33,774 nt of DNA from contig WGEZ01000101.1 in NCBI GenBank assembly GCA_015492515.1, positions 1 to 33,774 on the forward strand. Direction: 5' to 3'. Made by a program: the position numbers and the translations under genes. The DNA comes from Nitrospirota bacterium (GTDB lineage: Bacteria > Nitrospirota > Thermodesulfovibrionia > Thermodesulfovibrionales > JdFR-85). Below are positions 5,750 to 33,261 of this stretch, piece by piece (position 1 is the stretch's first letter; each line of letters begins with the position of its first letter). The notes below the pieces were generated by a model. It did no database searches. It had not been told where the DNA came from and saw only the letters and a program-made list of their open reading frames with translations.

Positions 5750-6831
5750 TACCTCAGCTTCAGTGTCGAGAGGCTCAGCAGGGCCAGCAGTATGCCCACT
5801 ATCCAGAACCTCACGACCGTCTTCGGTTCGGGCCAACCCTTCTCTTCGAAATGGTGATGGATCGGCGCCATGGAGAAGACCCTCCTGCCCGTGAGCTTGA
5901 AGGAGAGGACCTGGAGGATCACCGAGATCGTCTCCATCACGAATATCCCCCCCACCAGGGCGAGCACTATCTCGTGTTTTGTTATCACCGCGAGGGTGCC
6001 GAGGGCGCCGCCAAGCCCCAGGGAACCCACATCTCCCATGAATATATCCGCCGGGTAGGCGTTGTACCAGAGAAAGCCGAGGGCTGCGCCGAAGATGGCG
6101 CCGCAGTAGACCGTGAGCTCGCCCGTGCCCGGCAGATACAGGACCTGGAGGTACTGTGCCAGTCTCGCATGTCCGCTGAGGTACACGAGGGCTCCGTTTG
6201 CAAGCACGGCGATGGCCACAAGCCCGATGGCCAGGCCGTCTATGCCGTCTGTCAGGTTTACGGCGTTTGAGGCTCCGACGATGACGAAGACCGAGAAGGG
6301 GAGGTAGAAGAAGCCCAGGTCGATGAGCCACTTCTTGAAGAAGGGCACGCTCAGCTTCGTGCTGTAGGGGTCGAGGGGGTTGTGGTAGAGGAAGAGGCTT
6401 ATGCCCGTTGCAACAACGATCTGGAGGGCGAACTTGTAACAGGCCCTCATCCCCTTGTGGTTCCGCCTCACGATCTTGAGGTAGTCGTCGGCGAGCCCTA
6501 TCAGGCCGAAGCCGGCCGTCGCGGTGATCAGCACCCATACGTAGGGGTTGCCGAGGTCCATCCAGAGCAGGGCGGTGATCAGGATGCTGGCAAGGATCAG
6601 CACACCGCCCATGGTGGGTGTGCCGGCCTTCGAGATGTGCGTTTTCGGTCCGTCATCCCTGATCTGCTGCGTCAGGCTGAACCTCCGGAGCCTCTCTATC
6701 ACGAAGGGTGCCAGCAGGAACGTGAGCGCCGAGGCGGTGATGACCGCAAGGGCGGTCCTGAAGGTGATGTACCTGAATACATTGAAGGGGAAGAAGTATT
6801 CATGAAGTCTGTATAGCAGTGTATAGAGCAT
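5749..6831 (-). CDS. mraY: Phospho-N-acetylmuramoyl-pentapeptide transferase MraY
   Basis: MraY is the integral membrane enzyme that moves phospho-MurNAc-pentapeptide onto undecaprenyl phosphate to make lipid I. It has the normal length of 360 residues. Family signatures are clear: DDGPKTHISKAGTPTMGG near residue 65, NAVNLTDGIDGLAIG in the middle, GDVGSLGLGGALG, and the histidine-rich PIHHHFEEKGW near the C-terminus. Ten or so hydrophobic helices are evident. The start codon shares one base with the murE-murF stop (TGATG), and the stop shares one base with the murD start. Confidence 0.97.
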   Translation of the reverse strand: MLYTLLYRLHEYFFPFNVFRYITFRTALAVITASALTFLLAPFVIERLRRFSLTQQIRDDGPKTHISKAGTPTMGGVLILASILITALLWMDLGNPYVWVLITATAGFGLIGLADDYLKIVRRNHKGMRACYKFALQIVVATGISLFLYHNPLDPYSTKLSVPFFKKWLIDLGFFYLPFSVFVIVGASNAVNLTDGIDGLAIGLVAIAVLANGALVYLSGHARLAQYLQVLYLPGTGELTVYCGAIFGAALGFLWYNAYPADIFMGDVGSLGLGGALGTLAVITKHEIVLALVGGIFVMETISVILQVLSFKLTGRRVFSMAPIHHHFEEKGWPEPKTVVRFWIVGILLALLSLSTLKLR

Positions 6832-9671
6832 CAGCCCTCCAGCAGCCTCTCCAGCCTCATGCCCCTGGAGCCCTTTATCAACACCGTGTCTTCGCTCTTC
6901 ACGATCTTAAGCAGTATCCTCCTCGCTTCCTCGGGATCCTTGACGTGGAGGGAGATCCTCCTGCCGTTGTCTCCCATGAACTCCTCGGCTGCATAGGACA
7001 TCAGCTCACCGATCCCGATCAGGACATCCACAGGGAGCGTGGCGAGCCACCTGCCCAGCTTCCTGTGGGCCTCCTCTCCATAGGAGCCGAGCTCGAGCAT
7101 GTCGCCGAGGACGGCCACGGCGCGCCCCCTCTTCAGCCTCACCAGCTCCTTCACCGCCTCCTCCATGGAGGCCGGGTTGGCGTTGTACAGGTCGCTCAGC
7201 ACCGTCGCCCCCTTCAGCTCCCGCAGCTCGAGCCTCATCGGGATGCCCCGGAAGCCCTCGAGGGAAGCCCTCACGACCTCGATGGGGACCTCGAAGAGGC
7301 GGCTTACCGAGATCGCTGCAAGGGCGTTGTAGACGTTGAACAGCCCGAGGACCCGGAGCCTTATCTCCGTCTCTGGTCCGTCCTTCACCAGGACCCTGAA
7401 CCTGATCCCGCCCTCTTCATGGACGATCCGGTCCGCCCTGACGTCCAGACCCTCGCCGCGGCCGAAGGTGATCACCCTCCGACCCTCCGAGGGCTCGATG
7501 CCGATGTTCGGATCGTCGCCGTTGACGACCAGGGTGCCCACGAAGTCGACGAGCTCCAGCTTCGTGCTCCGGACCGTCTCCAGGGAGCCGAACCCCTCAA
7601 GGTGGGCAGGTCCTATGTTCGTTATGACCCCGATATCAGGCAGGGCGATCTCAGCAAGCTCCCTTATGTCACCGGGCCTGCTGGCCCCCATCTCCAGGAC
7701 GGCGATCTCATGGTCGTCGAGCTCGGAGAGACAGAGGGGCAGCCCTATGTGGTTGTTGAGGTTCCCCCTGCTGCTCAGGACCCTGTACGAGCTGGACAGG
7801 ATTGTGTATATCATCTCCTTCGTGGTCGTCTTTCCGTTCGTACCCGTCACGCCCACGACCCTGGCCTGTCTGTTCAGACGCCTGTTGCGGGCTATCCCCT
7901 GGAGGGCCTTCAGGGTGTTGTTGACGTGGATGATGCTCCTTCCCCTTGTGGGTATCAGGGGCGGGTAGTTCACGATAGCGCCGGAGCCCCTCCTGATCGC
8001 CTCGTCCACGAAGTCATGTCCGTCGAACCTCTTCCCCTTCAGGGCGATGAAGAGCTCGCCCGCCCTGATCGTCCTCGAATCGATGGAGATGCCGCTGAAG
8101 AGGTCCGGGCCCTTCAGCAGGAGCCTTCCCGATGTGGCCTCCAGCACCTCCGTCAACGTATACCCCGCCGCCCTCCGGCGGGGCGGATCGGACGGCCGGA
8201 GGGCCCTGATGGCGCCTTTCAGGGCCTCCCTGTCGCTGAAGGGGTGTCTGACCCCCCTTATCTCCTGGTAGTCCTCATGCCCCTTCCCGGCAACCAGGAC
8301 CACATCGCCCCTACCGGCCATGGAGACCGCCCTCTGGATGGCGCGCATCCTGTCGGGCTCGACGGTATAGTTGTCCCCCTTTATGCCGGAGGTTATATCC
8401 TTGATGATGGCCTCCGGGTCCTCGGTCCTGGGGTTGTCCGAGGTGACGACGACGAGATCGCTCAGCTCTGCGGCTGCAGAGCCCATCTGGGGGCGTTTCC
8501 CCCTGTCCCTGTCGCCGCCGCAGCCGAAGACCGTTATGATCCGTCCTTCCGTGATCCTCCTCAGGGTCTCTAACACCTTCCTCAGGGCATCGGGCGTGTG
8601 GGCGTAGTCGACGACGGCGAGGAAGTCCTGACCGGCCTTCACGGGCTCCATCCTCCCCTCAACCCCCCTGAACCGCCTCACCCCTTCGGCTATCCTGCGC
8701 CACTGCAGCCCCAGTGCCACGGAAGCTCCGATGGCCGCCAGTATGTTGTAGACGTTCGTGATGCCGATGAGGGATGAGGCGATGTTGGCCATCACGGCCG
8801 TGGCCCCTTCGGGCCTGTACATCACCGTGAAGTTGAGGCCCTGAACCGTCTCGTTGATCCCTATGGCCCTCAACTCTGCATCCTCACCGAGCCCGTAGGT
8901 GATCATCCGCAGTCCTCTCTTGCCGCCGGAGCCCTTCATCTCGTCGATCAACCTCCTGCCGTAGGGGTCGTCTGAGTTCACCACCGAGGCGGCCCTGGTG
9001 AGCTCGGAGAAGAGCCTCCTCTTCGCCCTGTAGTAGGACTCCATGTCGCCGTGGAAGTCGAGGTGGTCCCTCGTGAGGTTGGTGAAGACCGAGACCTGGA
9101 ACTCGGTGCAGTCGACCCTCCTCATTGAGAGGGCATGGGAGGAGACCTCCGTGACGGCGTGGCTCATGCCTGCATCGCGGATCTCCCCCAGCATCCTCTG
9201 GAACTCTATCGCTTCGGGTGTGGTGAAGAGCCCCTTCTCGACCTCCCCGCCGAGGATGTAACCGGTGGTGCCGATCAGACCTGCCTTTATGCCGCTGCAC
9301 TCCAGGATGCTCCGCACCAGGTGGGCGGTGGTGGTCTTGCCGTTGGTGCCTGTTACGCCCACGACCTTCAGTCTGCCCGAGGGATGGCCGTGGAACCTGT
9401 CGGCGATGGCGGCCATGGCTCGGTGTATGTCGCTGACCTGGAGGCAGGGGACACCCAGATCCCTCCGGGGTGCCCTCTCGGAGATAACGGCCCTTGCACC
9501 CCTGCTCACCGCATCCACGGTGTAGTCGTTTCCGTTGTGACGGCCTCCCTGGATAGCGAAGAAGAGGTCTCCCTCCCTCACCCTCCTCGAGTCGGAGGCG
9601 AGGCCCTTTATCTCGCAGACCGGGTCTCCGACGGTGAGGCCCAGACCCTCTATCAGTTCCTCGAGCTTCAT
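6831..9671 (-). CDS. murE-murF: Fused MurE-MurF: meso-DAP-adding and D-Ala-D-Ala-adding Mur ligases
   Basis: One uninterrupted 946-residue frame contains two complete Mur ligases. The first half (about 1-490) is MurE. It has the N-terminal ASDSRRVREGDLF, the ATP loop GVTGTNGKTTT (105-115), TNLTRDHLDFHGDM, and the DNPR motif at 412-415 that in the family marks meso-diaminopimelate as the added amino acid. The second half (about 500-946) is MurF, with SIDSRTIRAGELFIALKG, a second ATP loop TGTNGKTT (609-616) and GNLNNHIGLPL. A short arginine/proline-rich linker joins them. I chose ATG 9671, preceded by GGAGAGAG. A TTG at 9692 would add seven residues but has a poorer ribosome site. Fusion of these consecutive steps is known in several bacteria. 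Confidence 0.95.
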   Translation of the reverse strand: MKLEELIEGLGLTVGDPVCEIKGLASDSRRVREGDLFFAIQGGRHNGNDYTVDAVSRGARAVISERAPRRDLGVPCLQVSDIHRAMAAIADRFHGHPSGRLKVVGVTGTNGKTTTAHLVRSILECSGIKAGLIGTTGYILGGEVEKGLFTTPEAIEFQRMLGEIRDAGMSHAVTEVSSHALSMRRVDCTEFQVSVFTNLTRDHLDFHGDMESYYRAKRRLFSELTRAASVVNSDDPYGRRLIDEMKGSGGKRGLRMITYGLGEDAELRAIGINETVQGLNFTVMYRPEGATAVMANIASSLIGITNVYNILAAIGASVALGLQWRRIAEGVRRFRGVEGRMEPVKAGQDFLAVVDYAHTPDALRKVLETLRRITEGRIITVFGCGGDRDRGKRPQMGSAAAELSDLVVVTSDNPRTEDPEAIIKDITSGIKGDNYTVEPDRMRAIQRAVSMAGRGDVVLVAGKGHEDYQEIRGVRHPFSDREALKGAIRALRPSDPPRRRAAGYTLTEVLEATSGRLLLKGPDLFSGISIDSRTIRAGELFIALKGKRFDGHDFVDEAIRRGSGAIVNYPPLIPTRGRSIIHVNNTLKALQGIARNRRLNRQARVVGVTGTNGKTTTKEMIYTILSSSYRVLSSRGNLNNHIGLPLCLSELDDHEIAVLEMGASRPGDIRELAEIALPDIGVITNIGPAHLEGFGSLETVRSTKLELVDFVGTLVVNGDDPNIGIEPSEGRRVITFGRGEGLDVRADRIVHEEGGIRFRVLVKDGPETEIRLRVLGLFNVYNALAAISVSRLFEVPIEVVRASLEGFRGIPMRLELRELKGATVLSDLYNANPASMEEAVKELVRLKRGRAVAVLGDMLELGSYGEEAHRKLGRWLATLPVDVLIGIGELMSYAAEEFMGDNGRRISLHVKDPEEARRILLKIVKSEDTVLIKGSRGMRLERLLEG

Positions 9672-9706
9672 GCTCTCTCCGTTGCTCTCCAAGCCCCGGC
9701 AGGGAC

Positions 9707-21104: not shown

Positions 21105-21313
21105 TGCGGCGGCTTGCCCATGCAGCGTCCTCAGGATGGACCCACCATGTGATTCAGGGAGAGGTGGGCGTTTGACGGTGTCAATTCGATGACACACACG
21201 CTCCCTCCTCCAGGGCCGTTGATTGTCACCCACCCTGCCTTATTACGGCAGCCCGCGACCCGCTGCCGGTGCGTATTGATGCCCCCGGGAGGTCCCGCCG
21301 CTGTGTCCGGTGC

Positions 21314-21343
21314 TTCATACGCCTGCTGGATATGGTATATAAT
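21314..21343 (+). promoter_or_regulatory. Probable promoter of the chemotaxis operon
   Basis: TTCATA (21314-21319), 18 bases, then a perfect TATAAT (21338-21343). The start point would be about 21350, some 35 bases before the cheY start. The -35 matches only four of six positions, so an activator is possible. Confidence 0.5.
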
Positions 21344-21365
21344 TTGCTTATAAATCATGGTATAT
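21332..21365 (+). repeat. Two direct ATGGTATAT repeats at the che promoter
   Basis: The 9-mer ATGGTATAT occurs at 21332-21340 and again at 21357-21365, with starts 25 bases apart. One copy overlaps the -10 element and one follows the probable transcription start. They may be a regulator site or chance in an AT-rich patch. Confidence 0.4.
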
Positions 21366-21383
21366 CCTTTTCAGGAGGAAGCC

Positions 21384-21755
21384 TTGAGGAACGTGCTCGT
21401 CGTGGAGGACTCCGACTCCACCAGGCGTATGATCAGGGCTGTTGTCGAAGACCTCGGGGAGGAGTTCCAGGTCTACGAGGCCGGCAACGGCTTCGAGGCC
21501 CTGAAGCTGCTGCCCACCGAGGAGTTCAGCCTGATAATAACGGATATAAACATGCCGGACATAAACGGCCTGGAACTGATAGGCTTCGTCAAGAGGACGC
21601 CCCGGTACAGCGCGATCCCGGTGATCATAGTGAGCACGGAGAAGACCGAGGAGGACAAGAGGAGAGGGCTGGCCCTCGGCGCGGAGACCTACATAACCAA
21701 GCCCTTCACACCGGAGGATCTGGAGGGTGCCGTGAGGAAGGTCTTGAGGCTATGA
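21384..21755 (+). CDS. cheY: CheY-like single-domain response regulator (first copy)
   Basis: This 123-residue receiver domain has all receiver residues: the acidic pair Glu8-Asp9, phosphoacceptor Asp54 (LIITDINMP), Thr85 and Lys106 (ITKPF). There is no output domain. It should be phosphorylated by CheA, encoded next to it, and signal to a motility motor. I chose the TTG at 21384, which follows a perfect AGGAGG by five bases and gives the standard N-terminus RNVLVVEDSDS. An in-frame ATG at 21357 lies in the promoter region with no ribosome site. The stop overlaps cheA (ATGA). Confidence 0.93.
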   Translation: MRNVLVVEDSDSTRRMIRAVVEDLGEEFQVYEAGNGFEALKLLPTEEFSLIITDINMPDINGLELIGFVKRTPRYSAIPVIIVSTEKTEEDKRRGLALGAETYITKPFTPEDLEGAVRKVLRL

Positions 21756-23695
21756 GTCCTTCGAGGAAGGAGTTTGTTTCAGAGGCGGAGGACCTGCTTG
21801 CTGAGGCGGGGGAACACCTCCTCCGGATACAGGAGACGGGAGGGTCCGAACCGGAGGCCCTCAACGGCCTCTTCAGGTCGATCCATACCCTGAAGGGCCT
21901 GTCCGGTCTCTTCGGGCTGGAGGGGCTGCGGGAGCTGAGCCACGGCCTCGAGAGCCTCCTTGATGACCTGAGGCTCGGCAGGCTCGACGTGACAGCCGAG
22001 ACCGTCCGGTTCCTCTTCAGGAACCTCGACGTACTGAAGACGCTGGTCAGGGATGCGGAGCGGGGCGGGGAGATCGACGTAACCCCCCATATCAGGGAAC
22101 TGGAGGCCTTCCGGGAGGGAGGCGTGCGGGGAGGTGCCGGCGATCCGCTCGTCGGTGTCGTGGACGAGGCGACCCTGAGTGTGCTCACCGAGTATGAGGA
22201 GCACCGGCTCAGGGAGAACATCAGACAGAAGAGGGGGGTCTTCAGCCTGGACGTGGTCTTCCCCTTCGCTGAGTTCGAGAGGGCCCTTTCGGAGCTGAGG
22301 GAGAAGATCAAGGGGGTGGCCGAACTGATCTCCACACTCCCCACATCCGACAACGTCCCGGAGGACTGCATCGGCTTCAGGCTGCTCTTCGCCTCGGCGG
22401 AGGACCCTCATTCTCTGAAGGAGGGCCTCGGGATCGAGCCGAAGACGGTCGTTGCACCAGGGTCTGCGGTCTCCGGGGAGGAGGGCCAGCCCTCACTGAA
22501 GAGCCTCTCCACGACGTTGAGGGTGGATATAGAGAAGCTGGACATGATACTGGACACCATCGGTGAGCTCGCCATGACGAAGGGCGCCCTGAAGAGGATA
22601 GAGACCGAGCTGGCCGAGGCCTACGGCCACTCCCATCTGATCTTCGACATCCACAGGGTGAACCAGATCCTCGGCAGGAGGCTCTCGAAGCTCCAGGATC
22701 AGATAATGGAGATCCGGATGATCCCCATCGGACAGATATTCTCGCGCCTCTCGCTGATCGTGAGGAGATACTCACGGGAGATCGGGAAGCCCGTCGAGCT
22801 GAGGGTCTTCGGTGAGGAGACGGAGATCGACAAGTTCATCGCCGAGGAGATCATCGACCCCCTGATGCATATCGTCAGGAACGCCCTGGACCACGGGATA
22901 GAGGGCCCTGAGGAGAGGAAGGCCGCTGGCAAGCCGGAGAAGGGGAGGGTGGTGCTGAGGGCCTTCCAGAGGGGTAATCACGTGGTGGTCGAGGTCGAGG
23001 ACGACGGCAGGGGGATCGACAGGGAGCGGATACGGACAAAGGCGGTGGCGGAAGGGATCATCCCCCGGGGGACGGAGATGGAAGACACGGGTCTCCTGGG
23101 CCTGATATTCCGACCCGGCTTCAGCACAAAGGATTCGGTCAGCGAGATATCGGGGCGGGGGGTCGGGATGGATGTGGTGAGGGAGCGGATCTCCTCCCTC
23201 GGCGGGTTTGTGGATGTGAGCACGGAGGAGGGCCGCTACACCCGCTTCTCCGTCACCATCCCCATCACCCTCGCCATCATAAAGTCCCTCCTGGTGAGGG
23301 TGGGCAACAGTGATTTCGCCCTCCCGATGTCGACGATCTCCGAGACCCTGCTCATCGACGGTGAAGCGCTCCAGAGCATCGAGGGCAGAAGGGTGTATAA
23401 TTTAAGGGGAGAGCTGTTGCCGGTGGTCTCCATTGCCGAATTCTTCCGGATCCCCGGAGGACCGGGCGGCTACATCGTGGTTTCCGGACATGAGGGAAGG
23501 AGGATCGGCCTCGTCGTTGATGAGCTCCTGGGCGGACAGGAGATAGTCATTAAGTCCCTCGGAGGGTACCTCGAAGGGCTGAGGGGGTTTGCAGGTGCAG
23601 CAGAGGTGGGCAGACACGAGGTGGTGCTCGTAATCGATGTGGAGGCCCTTGTGGAGGAGACCCTCCTGGGGCATAGAGGCCTGGCTCGGGTGTGA
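21752..23695 (+). CDS. cheA: Chemotaxis histidine kinase CheA
   Basis: CheA autophosphorylates under receptor control and passes phosphate to CheY and CheB. The 647-residue product has an N-terminal HPt domain with phosphorylated His45 in SIHTLKGLSGLFG. A variable linker/P2-like region follows. Next come the dimerisation domain (LSTTLRVDIEKLDMILDTIGELAM), the kinase domain with N-box HIVRNALDHGIE, G1 box VEDDGRGID and G2 box SGRGVGMDVV, and a C-terminal CheW-like domain (SLLVRVGNSDFALPM onwards). ATG 21752 overlaps the cheY stop. The long open frame upstream of it is out of register with any sensible start. All catalytic boxes are intact. Confidence 0.97.
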   Translation: MSPSRKEFVSEAEDLLAEAGEHLLRIQETGGSEPEALNGLFRSIHTLKGLSGLFGLEGLRELSHGLESLLDDLRLGRLDVTAETVRFLFRNLDVLKTLVRDAERGGEIDVTPHIRELEAFREGGVRGGAGDPLVGVVDEATLSVLTEYEEHRLRENIRQKRGVFSLDVVFPFAEFERALSELREKIKGVAELISTLPTSDNVPEDCIGFRLLFASAEDPHSLKEGLGIEPKTVVAPGSAVSGEEGQPSLKSLSTTLRVDIEKLDMILDTIGELAMTKGALKRIETELAEAYGHSHLIFDIHRVNQILGRRLSKLQDQIMEIRMIPIGQIFSRLSLIVRRYSREIGKPVELRVFGEETEIDKFIAEEIIDPLMHIVRNALDHGIEGPEERKAAGKPEKGRVVLRAFQRGNHVVVEVEDDGRGIDRERIRTKAVAEGIIPRGTEMEDTGLLGLIFRPGFSTKDSVSEISGRGVGMDVVRERISSLGGFVDVSTEEGRYTRFSVTIPITLAIIKSLLVRVGNSDFALPMSTISETLLIDGEALQSIEGRRVYNLRGELLPVVSIAEFFRIPGGPGGYIVVSGHEGRRIGLVVDELLGGQEIVIKSLGGYLEGLRGFAGAAEVGRHEVVLVIDVEALVEETLLGHRGLARV

Positions 23696-23699
23696 GACC

Positions 23700-24254
23700 A
23701 TGGATGGAGGACCCGCCAGAGAGGAAGCTGCAGGGGGAAGGCCTGAGGAAGGCGCTCCGGAGGAGATGATCGAGATCCTCTCTTTCCGGCTCGGAAGTGA
23801 GATGTACGCCTTCCCGATGGAGGGGATACAGGAGATCGTCCGCCTCTACGCCGTGACAGCGGTGCCGGGGACACCCCCGTATCTCAGGGGCATCACCTCG
23901 CTCCGGGGCAGGATGATCCCTGTTCTGGACCTGAAGGCACGGCTGAACGTGACGTCCGAGGGAGAGAGGGCCGCTGGGGGACGGGACAAGGGCAAGACGA
24001 TCGTCGTGAGGGGGCCGAGGGGGCCCATCGGGGTGATGGTCGACCTCGTCACCGGTGTCAAGCGGCTCCCTGAGTCGGCACTGATGGCCCCGCCGCCGCA
24101 TATGGGTGGAGATGAGGCGAGGTTCCTCAGCGGTGTCGTTGTTGAAGACGGGAGGTTCATAAGCCTCCTCAGGATGGATACGGTCCTGGAGCTCGAGGGA
24201 CCTTCCACCGCGGAGGACGGCCTGGAGAGGAGGCGGGAAGATGGGAAGGCTTGA
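23700..24254 (+). CDS. cheW: Chemotaxis coupling protein CheW
   Basis: CheW bridges chemoreceptors and CheA. The 184-residue protein has an SH3-like CheW fold: [22 protein letters not shown], then [23 protein letters not shown], then [21 protein letters not shown] 23700 is four bases after the cheA stop but has a weak ribosome site. An alternative start at 23766, directly after GGAGGAG, would remove a glycine/glutamate-rich 22-residue leader and leave the core domain intact. The end overlaps the next gene by 14 bases. Confidence 0.93.
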
Positions 24255-27093
24255 GAGAAGGGTCCTCGGTGTCTTCGTCGCGGTCATAGTCCTGAGCGTG
24301 ATCTTTGCCGTGGGCCTGGTGAGCTATCTCCAGAAGAAGAGCATATACGAGACGGCCACGGAGAGGATGACCGTGACCGCAGAGGTGGTGAGCAGGACCA
24401 TAGAGGCGGCGATGCTTGAAGGCGAGGCCGGGGCGGTAAGGGCTGTGGTCGACGCCCTCGGTACGATCGAGGGCCTCGGAGAGGTCGTTGTTGCAGACAG
24501 CGAAGGCCTCTCCACCTTCGACGGTTCGGGTGCCGTTGTGGAGAGGGAGGTCCTGGAGAGGCTCAGGAGCCGGGCATCCCCCTACGTCCGGATCAGCGGC
24601 GGTGTGATGACCGTCTACAGCCCCCTTCAGAACAGGGCCGCCTGCAGGAGGTGTCATGATCAGGGCGGTGACTACCTGGGGGTTGTGAAGGTCTCGATGA
24701 ACCTGGACAGGGAGGAGGGCCGGATGGGGGGTCTCATCACCTTCGACGTCGGCGCCTCCCTCTTCGCCGTCCTGGCGCTCTCCCTCATTGTGAGCATGCT
24801 CCTGCGGAGGATGGTGATCCGTCCTGTGGAGAAGATGGAGAGCGCGGCGAGGAGGGTCGCTGAGGGTGATCTCACCTTCAGCGCCGATTTCCGCTCCGAC
24901 GATGAGATCGGACAGACCTTCACCGCGCTCCAGAGGGCCTTCCAGTCCTTATCCAGGGTCCTGCAGAGGGTGAGGGATGTCACAAAGCGGATCTCCCGGG
25001 TCTCCTCAGAGGTGGAGGCTGATTCCAGGGAGGTCGTGGAGGGCACGAAGCGCGAGGCTGAGGCGGTCGAGGATATCTCAAGCTCCATCGAGCAGTTGAG
25101 CACAGCGGTCACCGAGGTGGCGGAGAGTACGGCCGATCTGGCGAGGTCGTCGGAGCGGTCCGCGTCCTCTGTGGAGAGGATGGCTGTCAGGATCTCTCAG
25201 ATCGCCCAGAACAGCAACGACCTCCTTGGCGCCTTCGACTCCACATCGTCATCCATCGAGGAGCTCTCCTCCTCGGTGAAGGAGGTGGCGCGGAGCACGG
25301 ACGAACTCTCCAGGGCTGCCGACGACACCCTATCGGCGGTCGAGGAGATCACGGCCTCTATAAGAGAGGTGGAGGGAAACACCAGGGAGTCCGCCAGGCT
25401 GACGGAGCGGGTCGTCCAGGAGGCCTCCTCCTACGGGATGGGGTCGATAGAGAAGACCCTGTCCGGCATGGAGAGGATCAAGGATTCGGTGCAGAAGACG
25501 GCGGAGTACATCGAGAGGCTCGGAGGGAGGTCCGAGGAGATCGGCAAGATCCTGACCGTGATCGACGAGGTCACGGACCAGACGACCCTCCTGGCACTCA
25601 ATGCAGCCATACTGGCGGCACAGGCGGGCGAGCACGGCAGGGGTTTCTCCGTCGTCGCCGACGAGATTAAGGACCTTGCCGAGAGGACGTCCTTCTCCAC
25701 CCAGGAGATAGCCACCCTCATCCAGACGGTGCAGCAGGAGGTGAGGGATGCGGCCTCGGCGATGAAGCGCGGTCTCGAGGCGGTCAACGAGGGTATGGGG
25801 CTTGCATCAGAGGCGGCTGATGCACTGAGGAAGATCGTGGAGAGTGCACGTGCCTCCTCGGAGATGTCCTCCGCGATCGAGAACGCTACCTCGGAGCAGG
25901 CGGCCTCGGCCAGGTTCGTGAAGGAATCGATGGAGAAGGTCCGCGACATGTCCAGCCAGATCGCAAGGGCCACCTCAGAGCAGTCCAGGGGGATGGCCCT
26001 CATAATGGAGGCCACGGAGAAGGTGAGGAACATCGCCATGGAGGTGAAGACCGCGACGGCGGAGCTCTCCACCCAGAGCGAACAGATAAGGAAGAACACC
26101 GAGGTGGTATCCGATAAGAGCCAGCTCATATCAAGCGCCATCAACGAGCAGAAGAGCGGTGCCGAGCAGATAAAGAGATCGGTGAGGGCGATAACCGACC
26201 TCCCCGTCAAGAACAGGAACCTCGCCTTCAAGGTGAACAACGCCATCAGGGCCCTCGTCAAGGATGCGGAACTGGTAGTGGCCGAGATGGAGGGGTTCAG
26301 ACTCCATGCCTCGGCAGCCGACGAGAGGGTCCTCAGGCTCGGTGTGGTCCCTCTGCAGTCGCCGGCGGAGATGCACAGGAGGTTCGGCCCCTTCGTGGAC
26401 TACCTCGGCAGGAAGCTCGGCAGGCACGTGGAGCTGAAGGTGGGGCTCGATTTCCGTAGCGCCATAGAGGACATAGGCAAGGGCGTGACGCAGTTCTGTT
26501 ACATGACCCCTTCCACGTTCATAATCGCGAACAACGACTACGGCGTCAGGGTCCTCGTGCAGGCCGTCAGGGACGGCAGGCCCTTCCATCATTCCGTCAT
26601 CATCGCAAGGGCCGACAGCCCCATATCCGGCATCGAGGACATCAGGGGGCGGTCCTTCGCCTTCGGTGACCCTGGATCGACCTCGTCCCACATAGTGCCG
26701 AGGCATATGCTCCTTGAGGCGGGCATAACCCTCGACGACCTCCTCTACTACAACTACCTCGGCCACCACGACGACGTGGCGAAGGCGGTCCTCTCCGGAC
26801 AGTACGATGCCGGTGCGGTGATGGAGTCAGCGGCGGAGAGGTTCAGGGAGGAGGGTCTGAAGTTCGTGAAGATCTCCGAGGCCATACCGGAGTTCAACGT
26901 CTGCGTCTCGAAGGACCTGCCTGACGAGGATGTGGAGGCCCTGAGGGCCGCGCTGCTGTCGCTGAAGGATACGGACCCGGAGGGTGCAGCGGTGCTGAGG
27001 GCGATCGATGAGCACTACAGGGGGTTTGTGGATGCCAGCTACGAGGACTATCTGTGGATAAAGGAGATCATGTCAAGGCTGGGCATGCTTTGA
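24241..27093 (+). CDS. Chemoreceptor with haem-c-type sensor and C-terminal PhnD-like domain
   Basis: The 950-residue methyl-accepting protein has a membrane helix (9-30), then a periplasmic domain of about 130 residues containing the haem-c motif Cys135-Arg-Arg-Cys138-His139. A second helix (about 166-188) and a HAMP domain (about 187-240) follow. The long cytoplasmic signalling coil has its hairpin tip near 446-465. After the coil, residues about 696-950 form a PhnD-like (phosphonate-type) substrate-binding domain: [53 protein letters not shown]. No membrane helix precedes that domain, so it should lie in the cytoplasm, an unusual place for this fold. The tip has Leu458 and Gln461 where E. 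coli receptors have Glu and Arg. The start overlaps cheW. Confidence 0.92.
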
Positions 27094-27104
27094 GATCGAG
27101 AGGG

Positions 27105-28832
27105 ATGGTGTCCCTCTGGAAGACGAAGAGGCTCTCCAGGCGGTTCATCCTGAGGGTGCTCGCGATCCTTCTCCCGGGCCAGGGCCTGCTCTGGTTCTGG
27201 TTCTTTTCGATCCACCGGGACCTCATCGGTAAGGCCCCGGGGACGATCCTCGCCACCCTCTCGCTCCAGGCGGCGGTCCTGGCGGTCTTTCTCATCCTGA
27301 TCCACCGCTTCTTCAGCAGCAGCATCACCGCAAGGATAGAGGAGCTCAGCAGCGGCATCGAGAGGGTCACCGCCGGTGATCTTACAGAGAGGGTAGAAGG
27401 CACAGGGGACGACGAGATCGGTTCGATGGCGAGGGGGCTCGGCTTCCTCACGGACCGTCTCTCCTCCACGGTGAAGAAGCTTAGGTTGATCTCCGGCAAC
27501 GTCGCGGCGGCGATAAGCCAGCTGCACCTGATATTCAAGGACGTTGCGGAAGGCATGTGGAGGCAGCAGTCCTCATCAGAGGAGGTGCTCAACGCGGTCA
27601 GGAAGGTCTCCGGATCACAGTCCAGGATCATCGAGCATACCGAGAGGCTCCTCTCCCTCTCGGGAGACAACCTCTCGGCCCTCCTCCAATTGAAGTCCAC
27701 CTCCGAGGAGATAGCGGCCGGTACGGAGAGGCTGAAGGTCGACTTCGACAGCTCCTGCTCGGCCGTATCAGGGCTGATGCACTCGGCACGGGAGGTGGCC
27801 TCAAGGGCGGCGGAGGCGTCGTCGGCCCTCCAGGATGCCTCCTCATCGGTGGAGGAGGTGAACGCCTCGGTGAAGGAGGTGGAACGCAACGCCGCCGAGT
27901 CCGCCAGGCTCAGCCAGGAGACGACGGAGGTGATATCGGAGAAGGGGATGATCTCCGTCGTCGATGCGGTGAACGTCATGGAGAGGATCGAGGCCGCCGT
28001 AAGGTCCCTCACCGAGGTGATCAGGAGGCTCGACCAGAGGTCCCAGGACATCGGAAAGATCACCTCCGTCATCAGGGAGATAACGGAGCAGACGGGGTTG
28101 CTCAGCCTCAACGCCCAGATACTCGCGGTCCAGGCCGGAGAGTACGGAAAGGGGTTCTCCGTCGTCGCCGACGAGATGAGCGCCCTCTCGGAGAAGACCG
28201 CCGCCTCCGCCCGTGAGATCGCGGGCATCGTCTCCACCATCAAGAAGGAGATCGAGGGCGCCGTGGAGAGGACGGAGGAGACTGTCAGGATGGTCGAGGA
28301 GGGGAACGGCATCGTGCTGAAGGCAGGTGAGGCCCTGAGGGAGATACTGGTGGCCTCCAGGAGGTCGTCCGAGACGGCGGCAGGCATAGAGAGGGCCGTC
28401 ACCGAGCAGAGGAGCGGCCTCGGACTCATCCTGGATTCGATCGAGAGGATAAAGCAGATGGCCTTCGACGTCAACACCGCGGCAGAGGGTCAGGAGAGGA
28501 GCACTGCCTACCTCCTGGAGAAGATGGATTCCATGAAGGACTCCCTGGAGCTGACCAGGAAGGCCACGGACGAACAGGTGGAGAACGCCCGCTTCATCAC
28601 GGACAACATCGAGCTGGCCAACGAGATGACGGCGGAGATCACGAGGGCCTCATCGGAACAGCAGGCGTTGAACGGAGAGGTCGTGGCGGCGCTGGAGGAG
28701 ATCATCAAGACGAGCAAGGACTCCGCAGAGGGGCTTAAGGAGGTCTCGCTCCTCATCTCCTCCCTCCGCGACGAGGTGGAGTCGCTCAAGCAGGGGATGG
28801 GGATCTTCAACACAGGAGACAGAAGGGGTTAA
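27105..28832 (+). CDS. Chemoreceptor without a periplasmic sensor domain
   Basis: This 575-residue methyl-accepting protein has two hydrophobic helices (about 14-36 and 48-70) separated by only a dozen residues, so almost nothing projects outside. A HAMP domain follows (about 71-122), then a long cytoplasmic coil with the signalling tip near 326-360 (LLSLNAQILAVQAGE). It may sense membrane state or energy, or act with the preceding receptor. Both are inferences. Like that receptor, it has Leu340 and Gln343 at the usual Glu and Arg positions of the tip. ATG 27105 is preceded by GAGAGGG. An in-frame TTG at 27090, touching the previous stop codon, is the alternative start. Confidence 0.88.
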   Translation: MVSLWKTKRLSRRFILRVLAILLPGQGLLWFWFFSIHRDLIGKAPGTILATLSLQAAVLAVFLILIHRFFSSSITARIEELSSGIERVTAGDLTERVEGTGDDEIGSMARGLGFLTDRLSSTVKKLRLISGNVAAAISQLHLIFKDVAEGMWRQQSSSEEVLNAVRKVSGSQSRIIEHTERLLSLSGDNLSALLQLKSTSEEIAAGTERLKVDFDSSCSAVSGLMHSAREVASRAAEASSALQDASSSVEEVNASVKEVERNAAESARLSQETTEVISEKGMISVVDAVNVMERIEAAVRSLTEVIRRLDQRSQDIGKITSVIREITEQTGLLSLNAQILAVQAGEYGKGFSVVADEMSALSEKTAASAREIAGIVSTIKKEIEGAVERTEETVRMVEEGNGIVLKAGEALREILVASRRSSETAAGIERAVTEQRSGLGLILDSIERIKQMAFDVNTAAEGQERSTAYLLEKMDSMKDSLELTRKATDEQVENARFITDNIELANEMTAEITRASSEQQALNGEVVAALEEIIKTSKDSAEGLKEVSLLISSLRDEVESLKQGMGIFNTGDRRG

Positions 28833-28891
28833 GCCGGTTGCCGGGAGGGCACAGCTCAGACGTCCCGGGACGCCGGCATCAGACGGAGGTG

Positions 28892-30850
28892 ATGGTGAAG
28901 GCCGGAGAGACGGAAGAGAGGATGGCGAGGCTCCTTTCACTGGAGGGGGGGCCGGAGGACCTGGGGTTCGTCCTGGACTCCCTCAGGAACGGGAGCTGGC
29001 GCATCAGGAAGGCCGCCCTCGACGTCCTGTTCCAGCGGTACAGCCCGGAGCAGTACGTCGAGGAGCTGATAGGGCTTCTGTACATCGAGGACAACGCCGG
29101 GGCACGGAACACCGCCATGGAGGCCCTCGTGAGGCTGGGAAGGCGGGCCGTGGATCACCTCGCCGCTGCCTACAGGACGGAGAACCGTGACGTCAGGAAG
29201 TTCATCGTGGACATCCTGGGCATGATCGGCGGCAGAGGGGTCCTGCCCGTCCTGCTTCAGGCGATCAAGGACGAGGACGACAACGTGAGGGCCTCGGCGG
29301 TGGAACACCTCGGGAGGCTCAGGGACCCCTCAGTCGTCGACGCCCTGCTGGAGATAGTCGACTCGGGTGAGTTCTGGACCGCCTATCCAGCTCTGGAGGC
29401 CCTCGGCCGGATCGGTGACAGGCGGGCCGTTCCACACCTCCTGAGGGCCCTTGAGAGAAGGCGCCTAACAGAGCCCGCGCTGAAGGCGCTCTCAGGATTC
29501 GCCGTCCCGGACGCCCTGGACGAGATCATCCCCCTGCTGCGAGACAGGCGGCGTTCCGTCCAGGAGGAGGCCTTGAGGACGATAGAGGGCCTCTACCAGA
29601 ACGGGGTCTCCGGCGAGCTCATATCACTGAAGCTGAGGGGACTGATCGGTGATGAGGTCTCCGATCTGCTCCTCAGGCACGCCGACCACAGGGATAAAGA
29701 TACCAGGGCTGCAGCGATGGTCCTCCTCTGCCTCATCGGTGATCACCGTGCGATGGCACCCCTGCTCGACCTTTCCGAAGACGACGGGTTCAGGGAGAGG
29801 GTGAAGCGTTCGCTCCTCTTCATCGGCGGGAGGGAGCCCGAGAGCCTCATAGCCGTTGCGAAGACGGGATCAACGTTGAAGAGGAGGCTGATGGCCGAGG
29901 TCTTCTCCGAGCTCGGGACACCAAGGCTCTTCGGGATACTCCTGGAGCTCCTCAGAGACGACGACGGCCACGTGATAGCCCACGCCGCCCGCGGACTCGG
30001 CCGGATCGGTGACAGGCGGGCTGTGGACGAGCTCCTTCCCCTCCTGGGCCATCCATACCCTGACGTCCAGGAGGCCGCTGTCTCAGCCCTCACGGAACTG
30101 GGCCGCTTCGTTCCTGTCCATGAACTGATCGAGGCCCTCGGTGCCGGTGACCCCCGCCTCAGGAGGAACGCAGCCCGGATACTCGGCAACATCCGGGCCG
30201 GAGAGGCCCTGGAAGCCCTCGCCCTTGCGGCGAAGGACGAGTCGGAGGAGGTGAGGAAGGCGGCCCTCCGGGCGGTGGCAAAGATGGGGACCGGGGCCGC
30301 GGTGAGGTGTCTCCGTGCGGCCCTCGCAGATGAGTCGCCGCGGATACGCGCCGTGGCCACCGAGAGCCTGGCGCTCCTCTCGGGCAGGGAGGCCCTCGGG
30401 TTGGTGGTGCTCATGGCCGGGGACCCCGACGACGGTGTCAGGGCCAGGGCGGCGCATTGTCTCTCAAGGTTCGATGATGCGGCCTCGCTGGAGGCGCTGA
30501 TCAGGCTGCTGAAGGACCGGAACGGCCTCGTCGTGGCGAAGGCGATCGAGTCCCTGGCCGCCTTCAGCCACAGGGTGGAGGCCCGGGACGCCGTGGCCGG
30601 GATGCTCGGCTCCGACGACAGGGAGATCCAGCGGACCGCCGTCATGGCCCTTGCATCCTTCAGGGGTACGGAAGGGCTGATCGAGCCCTTCCTCTCCGAC
30701 CGCGACTGGGCCACGAGGCTCGCCGCCGCCCGGGCCCTGGCAAGGAGAGGGTCCAGCAGGTCCAGGGCGAGCCTCGAGGATCGGTACCGCATCGAGGAAG
30801 ACCCGACGGTCAGGAAGGTGATCGAGGGGGCGTTGGGTGTCTCACGCTGA
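28892..30850 (+). CDS. HEAT/PBS-lyase-repeat protein in the chemotaxis operon
   Basis: This 652-residue soluble protein is built almost wholly of HEAT-type helical repeats of about 31 residues. More than a dozen units are visible, for example GDRRAVPHLLRAL and GDRRAVDELLPLLGHPYPDVQEA. It has no signal peptide, membrane helix or catalytic motif, so it is probably a binding scaffold. HEAT-repeat genes occur in some delta-proteobacterial chemotaxis clusters, and the position between the receptors and cheR suggests a partner among Che proteins. ATG 28892 has GGAGG just upstream. GTG 28895 is equally possible, and an upstream TTG at 28838 has no ribosome site. cheR begins at about its end. Confidence 0.88.
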   Translation: MVKAGETEERMARLLSLEGGPEDLGFVLDSLRNGSWRIRKAALDVLFQRYSPEQYVEELIGLLYIEDNAGARNTAMEALVRLGRRAVDHLAAAYRTENRDVRKFIVDILGMIGGRGVLPVLLQAIKDEDDNVRASAVEHLGRLRDPSVVDALLEIVDSGEFWTAYPALEALGRIGDRRAVPHLLRALERRRLTEPALKALSGFAVPDALDEIIPLLRDRRRSVQEEALRTIEGLYQNGVSGELISLKLRGLIGDEVSDLLLRHADHRDKDTRAAAMVLLCLIGDHRAMAPLLDLSEDDGFRERVKRSLLFIGGREPESLIAVAKTGSTLKRRLMAEVFSELGTPRLFGILLELLRDDDGHVIAHAARGLGRIGDRRAVDELLPLLGHPYPDVQEAAVSALTELGRFVPVHELIEALGAGDPRLRRNAARILGNIRAGEALEALALAAKDESEEVRKAALRAVAKMGTGAAVRCLRAALADESPRIRAVATESLALLSGREALGLVVLMAGDPDDGVRARAAHCLSRFDDAASLEALIRLLKDRNGLVVAKAIESLAAFSHRVEARDAVAGMLGSDDREIQRTAVMALASFRGTEGLIEPFLSDRDWATRLAAARALARRGSSRSRASLEDRYRIEEDPTVRKVIEGALGVSR

Positions 30851-30860
30851 AGGACGCACC

Positions 30861-31712
30861 GTGCTGACCGAGGAGACCTTCAGGCTTCTCAGGGAGCTTG
30901 TCAGGGATCACTCGGGGATCCTCCTTGACGATGACTCCAGGTCGATCGTGGAGAGACGCCTTTCGGGGAGGCTCAGGGTCCACAACCTGGACAACTTCAG
31001 GGACTACTACAGGTACCTCCTCTACGACGGGAAGAGGGACGAAGAGCTCTCGGCCGTCATGGACCTGCTGACGGTGAACGAGACCTACTTCTTCAGGGAG
31101 AAGAGGCAGCTTCAGGCCTTCCGGGAGGAGATACTGCCTGAGCTGAGAGAGAAGCGGAGGGATGTCAGGAGGATGAGGGTCTGGTCGGCGGGCTGCTCCA
31201 CCGGCGAGGAGGCCTATACGATAGCCATGTTGATCTCCGAGAGCGGGCTCTTCGAGGGATGGGACATCGAGGTCCTGGGCAGCGACATAAACAGGAGGGT
31301 CCTGCAGACGGCGAGGAGGGGTGTGTACAGGCGGAACTCCTTCAGGGCCACGAGCGACTATCACCTCCAGAAGTACTTCGAGCCCGTCCCCGAGGGCTGC
31401 TACCGAGTGAAGGACGACGTCAGGAGGCTCGTCACCTTCTGTTACATCAACCTCCTCGATCCCGGGAGATCGGGGTTCCTCGGCAGGATGGACGTGATCT
31501 TCTGCAGGAACGTACTGATATACTTCGACATCCCGTCCAGGAGGAAGGTGGTCCAGGGTCTCTACGATGCATTGAACGACGGCGGTTACCTCCTCCTGGG
31601 GCATGCCGAGTCTTTGATGAACATAACGACGGCCTTCACCCTGAGGCATCTGAAGCATGACCTCGTGTACCAGAGGCCGGAGGCCGGGGTGGCTTTATGT
31701 CAGAGAGGATAA
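30861..31712 (+). CDS. cheR: Chemotaxis protein methyltransferase CheR
   Basis: CheR uses S-adenosylmethionine to methylate glutamates on receptor signalling coils during adaptation. The 283-residue protein has the N-terminal helical domain and NETYFFRE. It then has the SAM-binding loop VWSAGCSTGEEAYTIAM, IFCRNVLIYF and the C-terminal GHAESL, all standard. I prefer GTG 30861, six bases after AAGGA and giving the normal start LTEETFRLLREL. A GTG at 30837 inside the HEAT gene would add eight residues. The end overlaps cheB by 16 bases, so the two adaptation enzymes are probably made together. Confidence 0.95.
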   Translation: MLTEETFRLLRELVRDHSGILLDDDSRSIVERRLSGRLRVHNLDNFRDYYRYLLYDGKRDEELSAVMDLLTVNETYFFREKRQLQAFREEILPELREKRRDVRRMRVWSAGCSTGEEAYTIAMLISESGLFEGWDIEVLGSDINRRVLQTARRGVYRRNSFRATSDYHLQKYFEPVPEGCYRVKDDVRRLVTFCYINLLDPGRSGFLGRMDVIFCRNVLIYFDIPSRRKVVQGLYDALNDGGYLLLGHAESLMNITTAFTLRHLKHDLVYQRPEAGVALCQRG

Positions 31713-32755
31713 GGGTCCTTGTCGTCGATGACTCAGCCTACAGCAGGCAGACCATCAAGGAGCTGCTCAGGGACGAACCGGGGATCGATGTCGAGGAGGT
31801 CGCGGTGGACGGTGCGGATGCCATTAGGAAGGTGCGTCGCTGCCGGCCCGACGTCATCACCCTCGACCTCCAGATGCCCGGGATGGACGGCTTCACCTTC
31901 CTCAGGTGGTTGATGCAGGAGATGCCCACCCCGGTGATAATGGTCAGCTCCCGTTCCGACAACGAGACCGTCTTCAGGGCCCTGGCGCTTGGGGCCGTGG
32001 ACTTCGTGGCGAAACCGGCAAGGAGGCTGGGGCTCGAGGGTGTCAGGAAGGACCTGATCGCCAAGATAAAGGGCATAGACACCAGATCGGTCGAGAGGCT
32101 CAACAGAAACCTCAGGATGATGGCCGAGGGAAGACGGCTCACGAGGGCGGCACGCTGCAGGAGGCCCTCCGATGGGGTCGTCGCCATCGGCGCCTCGACG
32201 GGAGGCCCCCAGGCGCTCCAGTTCATACTCGGCAGGATGCCCCCCGACTTCCCTGCGCCGATCGTCGTCAGCCAGCATATGCCCGAGGGCTTCACAGGCC
32301 CGCTCGCCGAGAGGTTGAACACCCTCTCACCCCTGAAGGTCAAAGAGGCCGAGGACGGTGAGGCCCTCCTGTCCGGAAAGGTCCTGATATCACCGGGAGG
32401 ACACCATCTCCTCCTGGAGAAGAGGGGGAAGGTGGTCTGCACGAGGCTGAGGAAGGCGGCGGACAATGACATATACACGCCCTCCGTGGACCTGATGATG
32501 TCCTCTGTGGCCCGGCTCTTCAGGGACAACGGCGTGGGGGTCGTGCTGACCGGCATGGGGAGGGACGGAGCCACGGGCATGCTCGAGATCCAGAGGGCGG
32601 GAGGCCACACCATAGCCGAGTCAGAGGAGACCGCCGTCGTCTTCGGCATGCCCAGGGAGGCGATCAGCAGGGGTGCGGCAAGGAAGGTCCTGCCCCTCGG
32701 CGAGATCCCGGAGGAGCTCTTAAGGGCCGTGAGGGGCGTCAGCCGTGGCGGGTGA
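31697..32755 (+). CDS. cheB: Chemotaxis protein-glutamate methylesterase CheB
   Basis: CheB removes receptor methyl groups and can deamidate glutamines; it is activated by phosphorylation from CheA. The 352-residue protein has a receiver domain with acidic Asp11-Asp12 and phosphoacceptor Asp57 (VITLDLQMPGMDG). A linker and the methylesterase domain follow, with the catalytic triad Ser167 (IGASTGGP), His194 (SQHMPEG) and Asp290 (TGMGRDG). Everything needed for activity is present. It is the last gene of the tightly packed block. A 131-base gap separates it from the second cheY. Confidence 0.96.
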   Translation: MSERIRVLVVDDSAYSRQTIKELLRDEPGIDVEEVAVDGADAIRKVRRCRPDVITLDLQMPGMDGFTFLRWLMQEMPTPVIMVSSRSDNETVFRALALGAVDFVAKPARRLGLEGVRKDLIAKIKGIDTRSVERLNRNLRMMAEGRRLTRAARCRRPSDGVVAIGASTGGPQALQFILGRMPPDFPAPIVVSQHMPEGFTGPLAERLNTLSPLKVKEAEDGEALLSGKVLISPGGHHLLLEKRGKVVCTRLRKAADNDIYTPSVDLMMSSVARLFRDNGVGVVLTGMGRDGATGMLEIQRAGGHTIAESEETAVVFGMPREAISRGAARKVLPLGEIPEELLRAVRGVSRGG

Positions 32756-32886: not shown

Positions 32887-33261
32887 ATGCCTAACATCCT
32901 TGTCGTTGAGGATTCACCGACGATGAGACAGCTCATCAGCTTCGCCATGCGCAGGATCCCTGACTCGAAGGTGATCGAGGCCCTCGACGGTGTGGATGCG
33001 CTCAGGAAGCTCTCCACGGAGAAGATCGACATCATCCTTGCCGACCTGAACATGCCCGTGATGGACGGGCTGAAGCTGGTCAGCCACGTGAGGAACAACC
33101 AGGCCTACAGTGATATACCGGTCATCATGATAACCACCGAAGGGGCCGAGGAGGACAGACGGAGGGCCATCGCCGCCGGTGCAGACGCCTACCTCTCCAA
33201 GCCCATCCAGACGCAGGAGCTGATCAGGCTGGTCACGGAACAGCTCGACAGGAGCAGATGA
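32887..33261 (+). CDS. cheY: CheY-like single-domain response regulator (second copy)
   Basis: This 124-residue receiver domain has Glu8-Asp9, phosphoacceptor Asp53 (IILADLNMPVMDG), Thr84 and Lys105 (LSKPI), so it should be phosphorylatable. It starts PNILVVEDSPTMRQLI, close to classical CheY, and has no output domain. The ATG follows a strong GAGGAGG. It differs clearly from the first cheY of the operon. One may drive the motor and the other serve as phosphate sink, but which is which cannot be told from sequence. It ends four bases from the convergent ahcY. Confidence 0.93.
   Translation: MPNILVVEDSPTMRQLISFAMRRIPDSKVIEALDGVDALRKLSTEKIDIILADLNMPVMDGLKLVSHVRNNQAYSDIPVIMITTEGAEEDRRRAIAAGADAYLSKPIQTQELIRLVTEQLDRSR

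Follow-up and report, generated by a model that had tools for sequence, protein, structure and literature searches.

A Nitrospirota chemoreceptor with a predicted haem-c sensor outside the cell and a predicted flytrap binding domain inside it

The window, by which we mean the whole stretch of DNA analysed here (33,774 nucleotides of contig WGEZ01000101.1 in the Nitrospirota assembly GCA_015492515.1), holds a chemotaxis operon in which the gene for a large chemoreceptor sits between CheW and CheR/CheB (Table 1). The operon is a conserved one, and in relatives its order is well kept: CheY, CheA, CheW, the receptor, usually a second receptor, CheW, a HEAT-repeat protein, CheR, CheB and CheY. The HEAT-repeat protein between the receptors and CheR is a conserved member of the che operon across Nitrospirota. 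Most relatives also carry a second CheW, placed after the second receptor and before the HEAT gene; in the window these two flanking genes stand 6 bases apart (28832-28838), which leaves no room for another gene, and the second CheW therefore seems to have been lost from this operon. Elsewhere in the window, on the minus strand at 6831-9692, a dcw-type cell-wall cluster includes a 953-aa ORF with two complete Mur-ligase domain sets, a probable MurE-MurF fusion.

Table 1. Genes of the che operon and features of the fused receptor, with positions in the window and the evidence for each.
Feature	Position	Strand	Evidence or remark
CheA histidine kinase	21269..23695	+	Hpt, H-kinase_dim, HATPase_c, CheW domains
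CheW coupling protein	23637..24254	+	PF01584 E=1.1e-32; 14-base overlap with receptor start
Chemoreceptor gene, 950 aa, ATG start	24241..27093	+	ORF, Pfam, NCBIfam, matching architecture in relatives
Membrane segment 1, residues 8-26	24262..24318	+	hydropathy 3.02
Periplasmic haem-c sensor (predicted), residues 31-162, sCache_heme / PF21563	24331..24726	+	PF21563 30.4 bits, cut-off 27
M58, probable sixth haem ligand	24412..24414	+	alignment; aligned with GSU0935 Met60
CRRCH haem-c attachment motif, residues 135-139	24643..24657	+	CxxCH in 55/62 receptors, 31 XX pairs
Membrane segment 2, residues 170-188	24748..24804	+	hydropathy 2.48
HAMP domain, residues 187-238	24799..24954	+	PF00672, 39.3 bits
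MCP signalling domain, residues 418-570, hairpin tip near 463	25492..25950	+	PF00015, E=1.3e-43
Flexible linker from coil to binding domain, residues 685-697	26293..26331	+	full-length model; L186 ortholog ends here
PhnD/PtxB-type binding domain, residues 700-937	26338..27051	+	PF12974 E=1.9e-67; model pLDDT 95; Foldseek
STS motif of oxyanion site, residues 813-815 (PtxB S124-T125-S126)	26677..26685	+	alignment with PtxB
H843, oxyanion-site histidine (PtxB H155)	26767..26769	+	58/62 receptors
F885, position of PtxB capping tyrosine Y203	26893..26895	+	F in 58/62
Second chemoreceptor, HAMP + MCP, without binding domain	27105..28832	+	PF00672, PF00015; start by inspection
HEAT-repeat protein, 670 aa	28838..30850	+	PF13646, eight repeats, E=4.5e-85
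CheR methyltransferase	30837..31712	+	PF01739 E=8.1e-60
CheB methylesterase	31697..32755	+	PF01339 E=8.6e-65
CheY-like response regulator	32887..33261	+	PF00072 E=1.9e-28

From its N-terminus, the 950-aa receptor consists of a membrane segment, a haem-c sCache sensor, a second membrane segment, a HAMP domain, an MCP coil and a C-terminal PF12974 domain. Residue 463 or thereabouts, which we take from homology to known MCPs to be the hairpin tip of the coil, lies in a stretch with 81% identity across the family. Could the joining of a binding domain to an MCP be an artefact of assembly or annotation? The source is a draft assembly of 148 contigs, which gives the suspicion some ground, but the ~950-aa architecture recurs at near-constant length in dozens of independent Nitrospirota genomes across the phylum. 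Because of this recurrence the fusion can be taken as real, and we rule out an artefact, to which we attach a negligible probability.

Profile matches indicate that the N-terminal sensor is best described as a haem-c Cache domain of the sCache_heme kind (DUF3365/Tll0287, GSU0582/0935 type). PF21563, the profile of the class 40H MCP sensor, matches residues 31-165 alone and above its cut-off, and it also matches all 40 of the relatives' sensors that were aligned; PF11845 gives a weak match in 13 of these 40 and none in the window's own sensor. The profile of the sensor family finds GSU0582 (3b47; E=4.8e-14) and GSU0935 (3b42; E=1.2e-11) with their CxxCH motifs aligned, while a single-sequence comparison of the window's sensor with these Geobacter sensors shows a distant likeness (E=0.0016). 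The CRRCH motif that an earlier note on this DNA had picked out in the sensor part is indeed there, and it is no chance motif, because 55 of 62 distinct receptors have CxxCH, using 31 XX pairs between them; selection thus seems to act on the residues that attach the haem and not on the spacer. M58 is a methionine in every one of the 40 aligned haem sensors and in 54 of the 62 receptors. In GSU0935 the haem ligation is His144-Met60, with Met60 ligating one of the two haems in the crystal structure (PMC8396549). Sensing of NO and of redox state has been reported for sensors of the sCache_heme or GSU0582/0935 type (PMC12889525, PMC8396549), and a 2026 preprint that reclassifies the family as sCache_heme describes NO-sensor properties in a signalling-associated member (PMC12889525). 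Four loci for cytochrome c assembly (PF01578) are present in the window's genome, which also encodes flagellar FliG. Judged by its motif, the sensor would be covalently loaded with haem, and the signal that it senses may be a gas or redox state.

The two membrane segments that flank the sensor are the only ones in the protein. Hydropathy reveals no hydrophobic segment after residue 188, and none between the coil and the binding domain. This topology is uniform in all 62 receptors compared, each having one membrane segment within residues 1-60, one within 100-320 and none later, and a membrane helix ahead of the C-terminal domain was ruled out by hydropathy for the window's receptor and these 62 alike. 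Since the MCP domain is necessarily cytoplasmic and the protein has just these two membrane segments, the C-terminal domain is predicted to lie on the cytoplasmic side. The earlier note had proposed both the lack of a helix after the coil and the cytoplasmic position of the domain, and the topology check, with segments at 8-26 and 170-188 alone, agrees on both counts.

That note had also taken the C-terminal 250 residues for a solute-binding domain of the phosphonate/phosphate type, an assignment that a domain search and a structure model confirm, the former placing the domain in the PhnD family and the latter giving it a flytrap fold. The PF12974 (Phosphonate-bd) match scores 227.6 bits against a cut-off of 27 and spans profile positions 1-242 of 242, and NCBIfam TIGR01098 (phosphate/phosphite/phosphonate binding protein) scores 143 bits against a cut-off of 112; the TtrS profile gives a weak match to the receptor. 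In an AlphaFold2 model made with no templates, residues 689-950 reach a mean pLDDT of 95, and the best PDB matches of this model in Foldseek, PtxB (5o37, E=1.2e-28) and ArrX (6x8w, TM 0.85), together with that pLDDT support a type II flytrap fold for the predicted structure. The distant fold matches include Thi5, a cytoplasmic HMP-phosphate synthase that is itself a flytrap-fold enzyme, so the domain might conceivably be enzymatic too. This is very improbable: the Thi5 match (E=3.4e-13, TM 0.64) is far weaker than those to PtxB or ArrX, the family assignment is PF12974, and the NMT1/THI5 profile matches weakly. We also considered and rejected an ordinary periplasmic solute-binding protein, as the domain follows the cytoplasmic coil with no membrane segment between and is predicted not to be exported, and its gene has che genes for neighbours. 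Among those neighbours, no partner ABC transporter was found beside the receptor gene.

The pocket residues published for PtxB (PMC5700983) served as the reference for mapping the binding site. Within the STS motif, S813 is conserved in all 62 receptors, T814 in 48 and S815 in 50, some paralogues having altered STS or pocket motifs. D16, Y49, Y94 and Y203 of Pseudomonas stutzeri PtxB correspond to L705, F738, H783 and F885, replacements that are themselves largely conserved, and because of these changes specificity cannot be read from the sequence. With F885 where PtxB proteins have the capping tyrosine (Y203/Y208) and L705 where they have the aspartate that partners it (D16/D22), the domain was not placed among the phosphite-specific PtxB proteins. 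Eight pocket positions have a mean conservation of 0.85 versus 0.666 for the whole domain, a value reached by 181 of 20,000 random sets. We read the pocket as an oxyanion or phosphoryl site that appears to have been retained with changed specificity; the likeliest candidate ligand would then be an oxyanion or phosphoryl compound, bound by the domain in the cytoplasm. As to the small anion that the earlier note placed inside the cell, the oxyanion-binding residues are kept but those for phosphite specificity are replaced, and a small anion is what we infer. An attempt to name the ligand from gene neighbours was dropped. The nearest stand-alone relative (L123) lies in an arsenate-reductase-like operon, where it adjoins a kinase, a regulator and an ArrA-type reductase, and the ligand is left unnamed because the tree ties the fusions firmly to no one stand-alone group.

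Might the domain instead be a degenerate leftover of the fusion with no present function? It is dispensable in two relatives (L186 and L187), and the altered pocket motifs in several paralogues fit such decay. Its near-constant length does not, and neither does the identity of relatives to the window's receptor, which across the phylum averages 56% in the binding domain versus 28% in the haem sensor and 49-51% in the coil; the internal module is therefore under stronger constraint than the haem sensor, and a functionless remnant is improbable.

The domain occurs in an ORF of at least 800 aa in 36 genomes out of a set made up of 61 relatives' genomes and the window's own. Among the best 80 matches listed, those with at least 42% identity come, save for one MAG, from MAGs labelled Nitrospirota, Nitrospirae or Thermodesulfovibrio(nales), and they are chemoreceptors wherever the full frame is present; those with 40% identity or less are stand-alone binding proteins from many phyla. 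Outside Nitrospirota, a search at E<=1e-25 through about 400 sampled genomes from each of two phyla, those of a Gallionella MAG (G183) and of a Deltaproteobacteria-labelled MAG (G182), did not find the fusion. At this threshold the longest domain-bearing frame in the two sampled phyla had at most 640 aa, and the six longest frames checked had one binding domain or two but lacked an MCP domain. Phyla beyond these two were covered solely by the scan that gave the best 80 matches. The architecture, which had been called uncommon, does look so across bacteria, but in much of Nitrospirota it is standard and belongs to a conserved che operon.

In a tree of the binding domain the fusions are loosely grouped (SH-aLRT 85-88), and one set of proteobacterial stand-alone proteins falls among them; the AU test does not reject that the fused domains arose once (p=0.42). 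The stand-alone group found among the fused domains (L125, L129, L131, L138, L139, L141, L143, L147, L152) has the STS loop deleted and therefore probably binds something else. The window's own genome also encodes, on contig C45 (L078, 1095-9477), a protein in which PF12974 occurs twice in tandem and which has a likely signal sequence. Next to it come genes for a histidine kinase, a sigma-54 regulator, an Fe-S protein and a molybdopterin oxidoreductase, in that order, and the locus resembles the ArrX-style systems that sense a respiratory substrate. A further tandem PF12974 protein is accompanied by a kinase and a regulator (L079).

Natural variants take the receptor apart. In one relative (L186) the receptor encoded in the same operon has 699 aa, retains the haem motif and breaks off inside the linker, and no binding domain lies nearby; in another (L187) the receptor has neither haem motif nor binding domain. 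Three others (L059, L117, L076) keep the binding domain at the same operon position, in receptors whose two membrane segments are adjacent and which lack a periplasmic sensor, and two (L069; L114, 12922-15819) pair it with a different Cache domain. Since receptors thus occur with haem only, with the binding domain only, with another Cache domain or with neither input, the inputs are separable modules. The window's own genome has a further example on contig C138 (L075, 5890-7797), a sensorless 635-aa TM-TM-HAMP-MCP receptor with a C-terminal PF12974 domain. Its gene is surrounded by glycosyltransferase-like genes with no che genes among them, and in its pocket the PtxB tyrosines are better kept than in the window's receptor. 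The sensorless receptors, this one included, suggest that the cytoplasmic domain is an input in its own right.

The operon can nevertheless do without the binding domain, as in L186 and L187, and this counts against a receptor with two inputs. The main rival to that reading holds that the domain no longer binds a small ligand and instead docks other proteins or organises the array, with CheW, CheR/CheB or the HEAT protein as possible partners, so that haem would be the sole input. Fused receptor and HEAT protein largely co-occur, a HEAT homologue (E<=1e-40) being present in only 2 of 17 relatives that lack the fused receptor, and many of the domain's most conserved positions are structural (G, P, F, L). 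However, HEAT protein, CheR, CheB and CheW all persist in L186 and L187 when the domain is absent, the L075 domain lies away from any che genes, the pocket residues are conserved above the domain average, and a docking role would leave the sensorless receptors with no evident input. Docking therefore seems to us unlikely.

We think it likely that the protein is a dual-input chemoreceptor, with the haem-c sensor outside and the flytrap binding domain inside, and a single receptor would then probably weigh an external and an internal chemical signal together. On the outside, the Cache domain with its presumed covalent haem c (axial His139 and a probable labile M58) would sense NO, a similar small ligand or the redox state, and would signal through the second membrane segment and HAMP to the long MCP coiled coil. 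The coil may return to about its membrane-proximal end: the N-terminal arm (239-463) and the stretch that follows (464-688) have 225 residues each, or about 32 heptads, a matter of arithmetic and not of modelled structure, and with arms of equal length the C-terminal one should reach about the HAMP end (238), where the binding domain starts. There a short linker would carry the PhnD/PtxB-type Venus-flytrap in the cytoplasm, where it would bind a solute in the STS-H pocket, an oxyanion or phosphoryl compound being the likeliest. Whether the flytrap is open or closed would bias the C-terminal side of the coil; closing could, for instance, alter helix packing near HAMP. In the full-length model the helix stops at 684 and linker residues 688-695 have a pLDDT below 50, and as that model is weak (pTM 0.40) the placing of the domain against the coil is tentative. 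Coupling of domain closure to the coil is something we infer. Both inputs would set the activity of CheA encoded in the receptor's own operon, with adaptation through CheR and CheB. It is an evenly balanced question whether these receptors form a phylum-wide class in which a flytrap, moved inside as a metabolite sensor, is coupled on one coil to an external haem-c gas or redox sensor, letting taxis weigh the electron-acceptor or NO status outside against the cell's own store of oxyanions or phosphoryl compounds.

The common view is that most chemoreceptors monitor a single compartment. If the dual-input reading is right, swimming could depend on comparing the external with the internal state. 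The natural variants, which have either module, both or neither in the same operon, make the contribution of each input directly testable, and a periplasmic binding-protein domain on the other side of the membrane might serve as a ready-made biosensor module for the cytoplasm.

Haem-c chemoreceptors (PMC8396549, PMC12889525), cytoplasmic C-terminal sensors of MCPs (PMC6715182) and PhnD-like proteins with a signalling role are already known. A description of their combination, or of a cytoplasmic PF12974 flytrap on a chemoreceptor, was not found in the open-licence papers searched; automatic domain-architecture listings may contain it. The exported proteins PtxB, PhnD and ArrX (PF12974) have fold, family and STS-H oxyanion residues in common with the window's receptor. 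In the receptor, however, the domain is predicted to lie at the C-terminal end inside the cell, and other residues stand in place of the cap that confers phosphite specificity. A PF12974-type domain likewise serves signalling, and not transport, in TtrS-type kinases and ArrX-type sensory proteins. In those systems the binding domain works on the periplasmic side; here, by contrast, it is predicted to be cytoplasmic and the output is an MCP. GSU0582 and GSU0935 of Geobacter sulfurreducens share with the receptor a periplasmic haem-c sensor with aligned CxxCH and Met60, two membrane segments, HAMP and MCP, but their cytoplasmic part is described as HAMP and MCP only, with no C-terminal binding domain (PMC8396549). 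Helicobacter pylori TlpD is, like this receptor, an MCP whose cytoplasmic C-terminus bears a sensory module; in TlpD that module is a small zinc-binding CZB domain on a fully cytosolic receptor, whereas here it would be a 240-residue flytrap joined to a second, extracytoplasmic sensor (PMC6715182).
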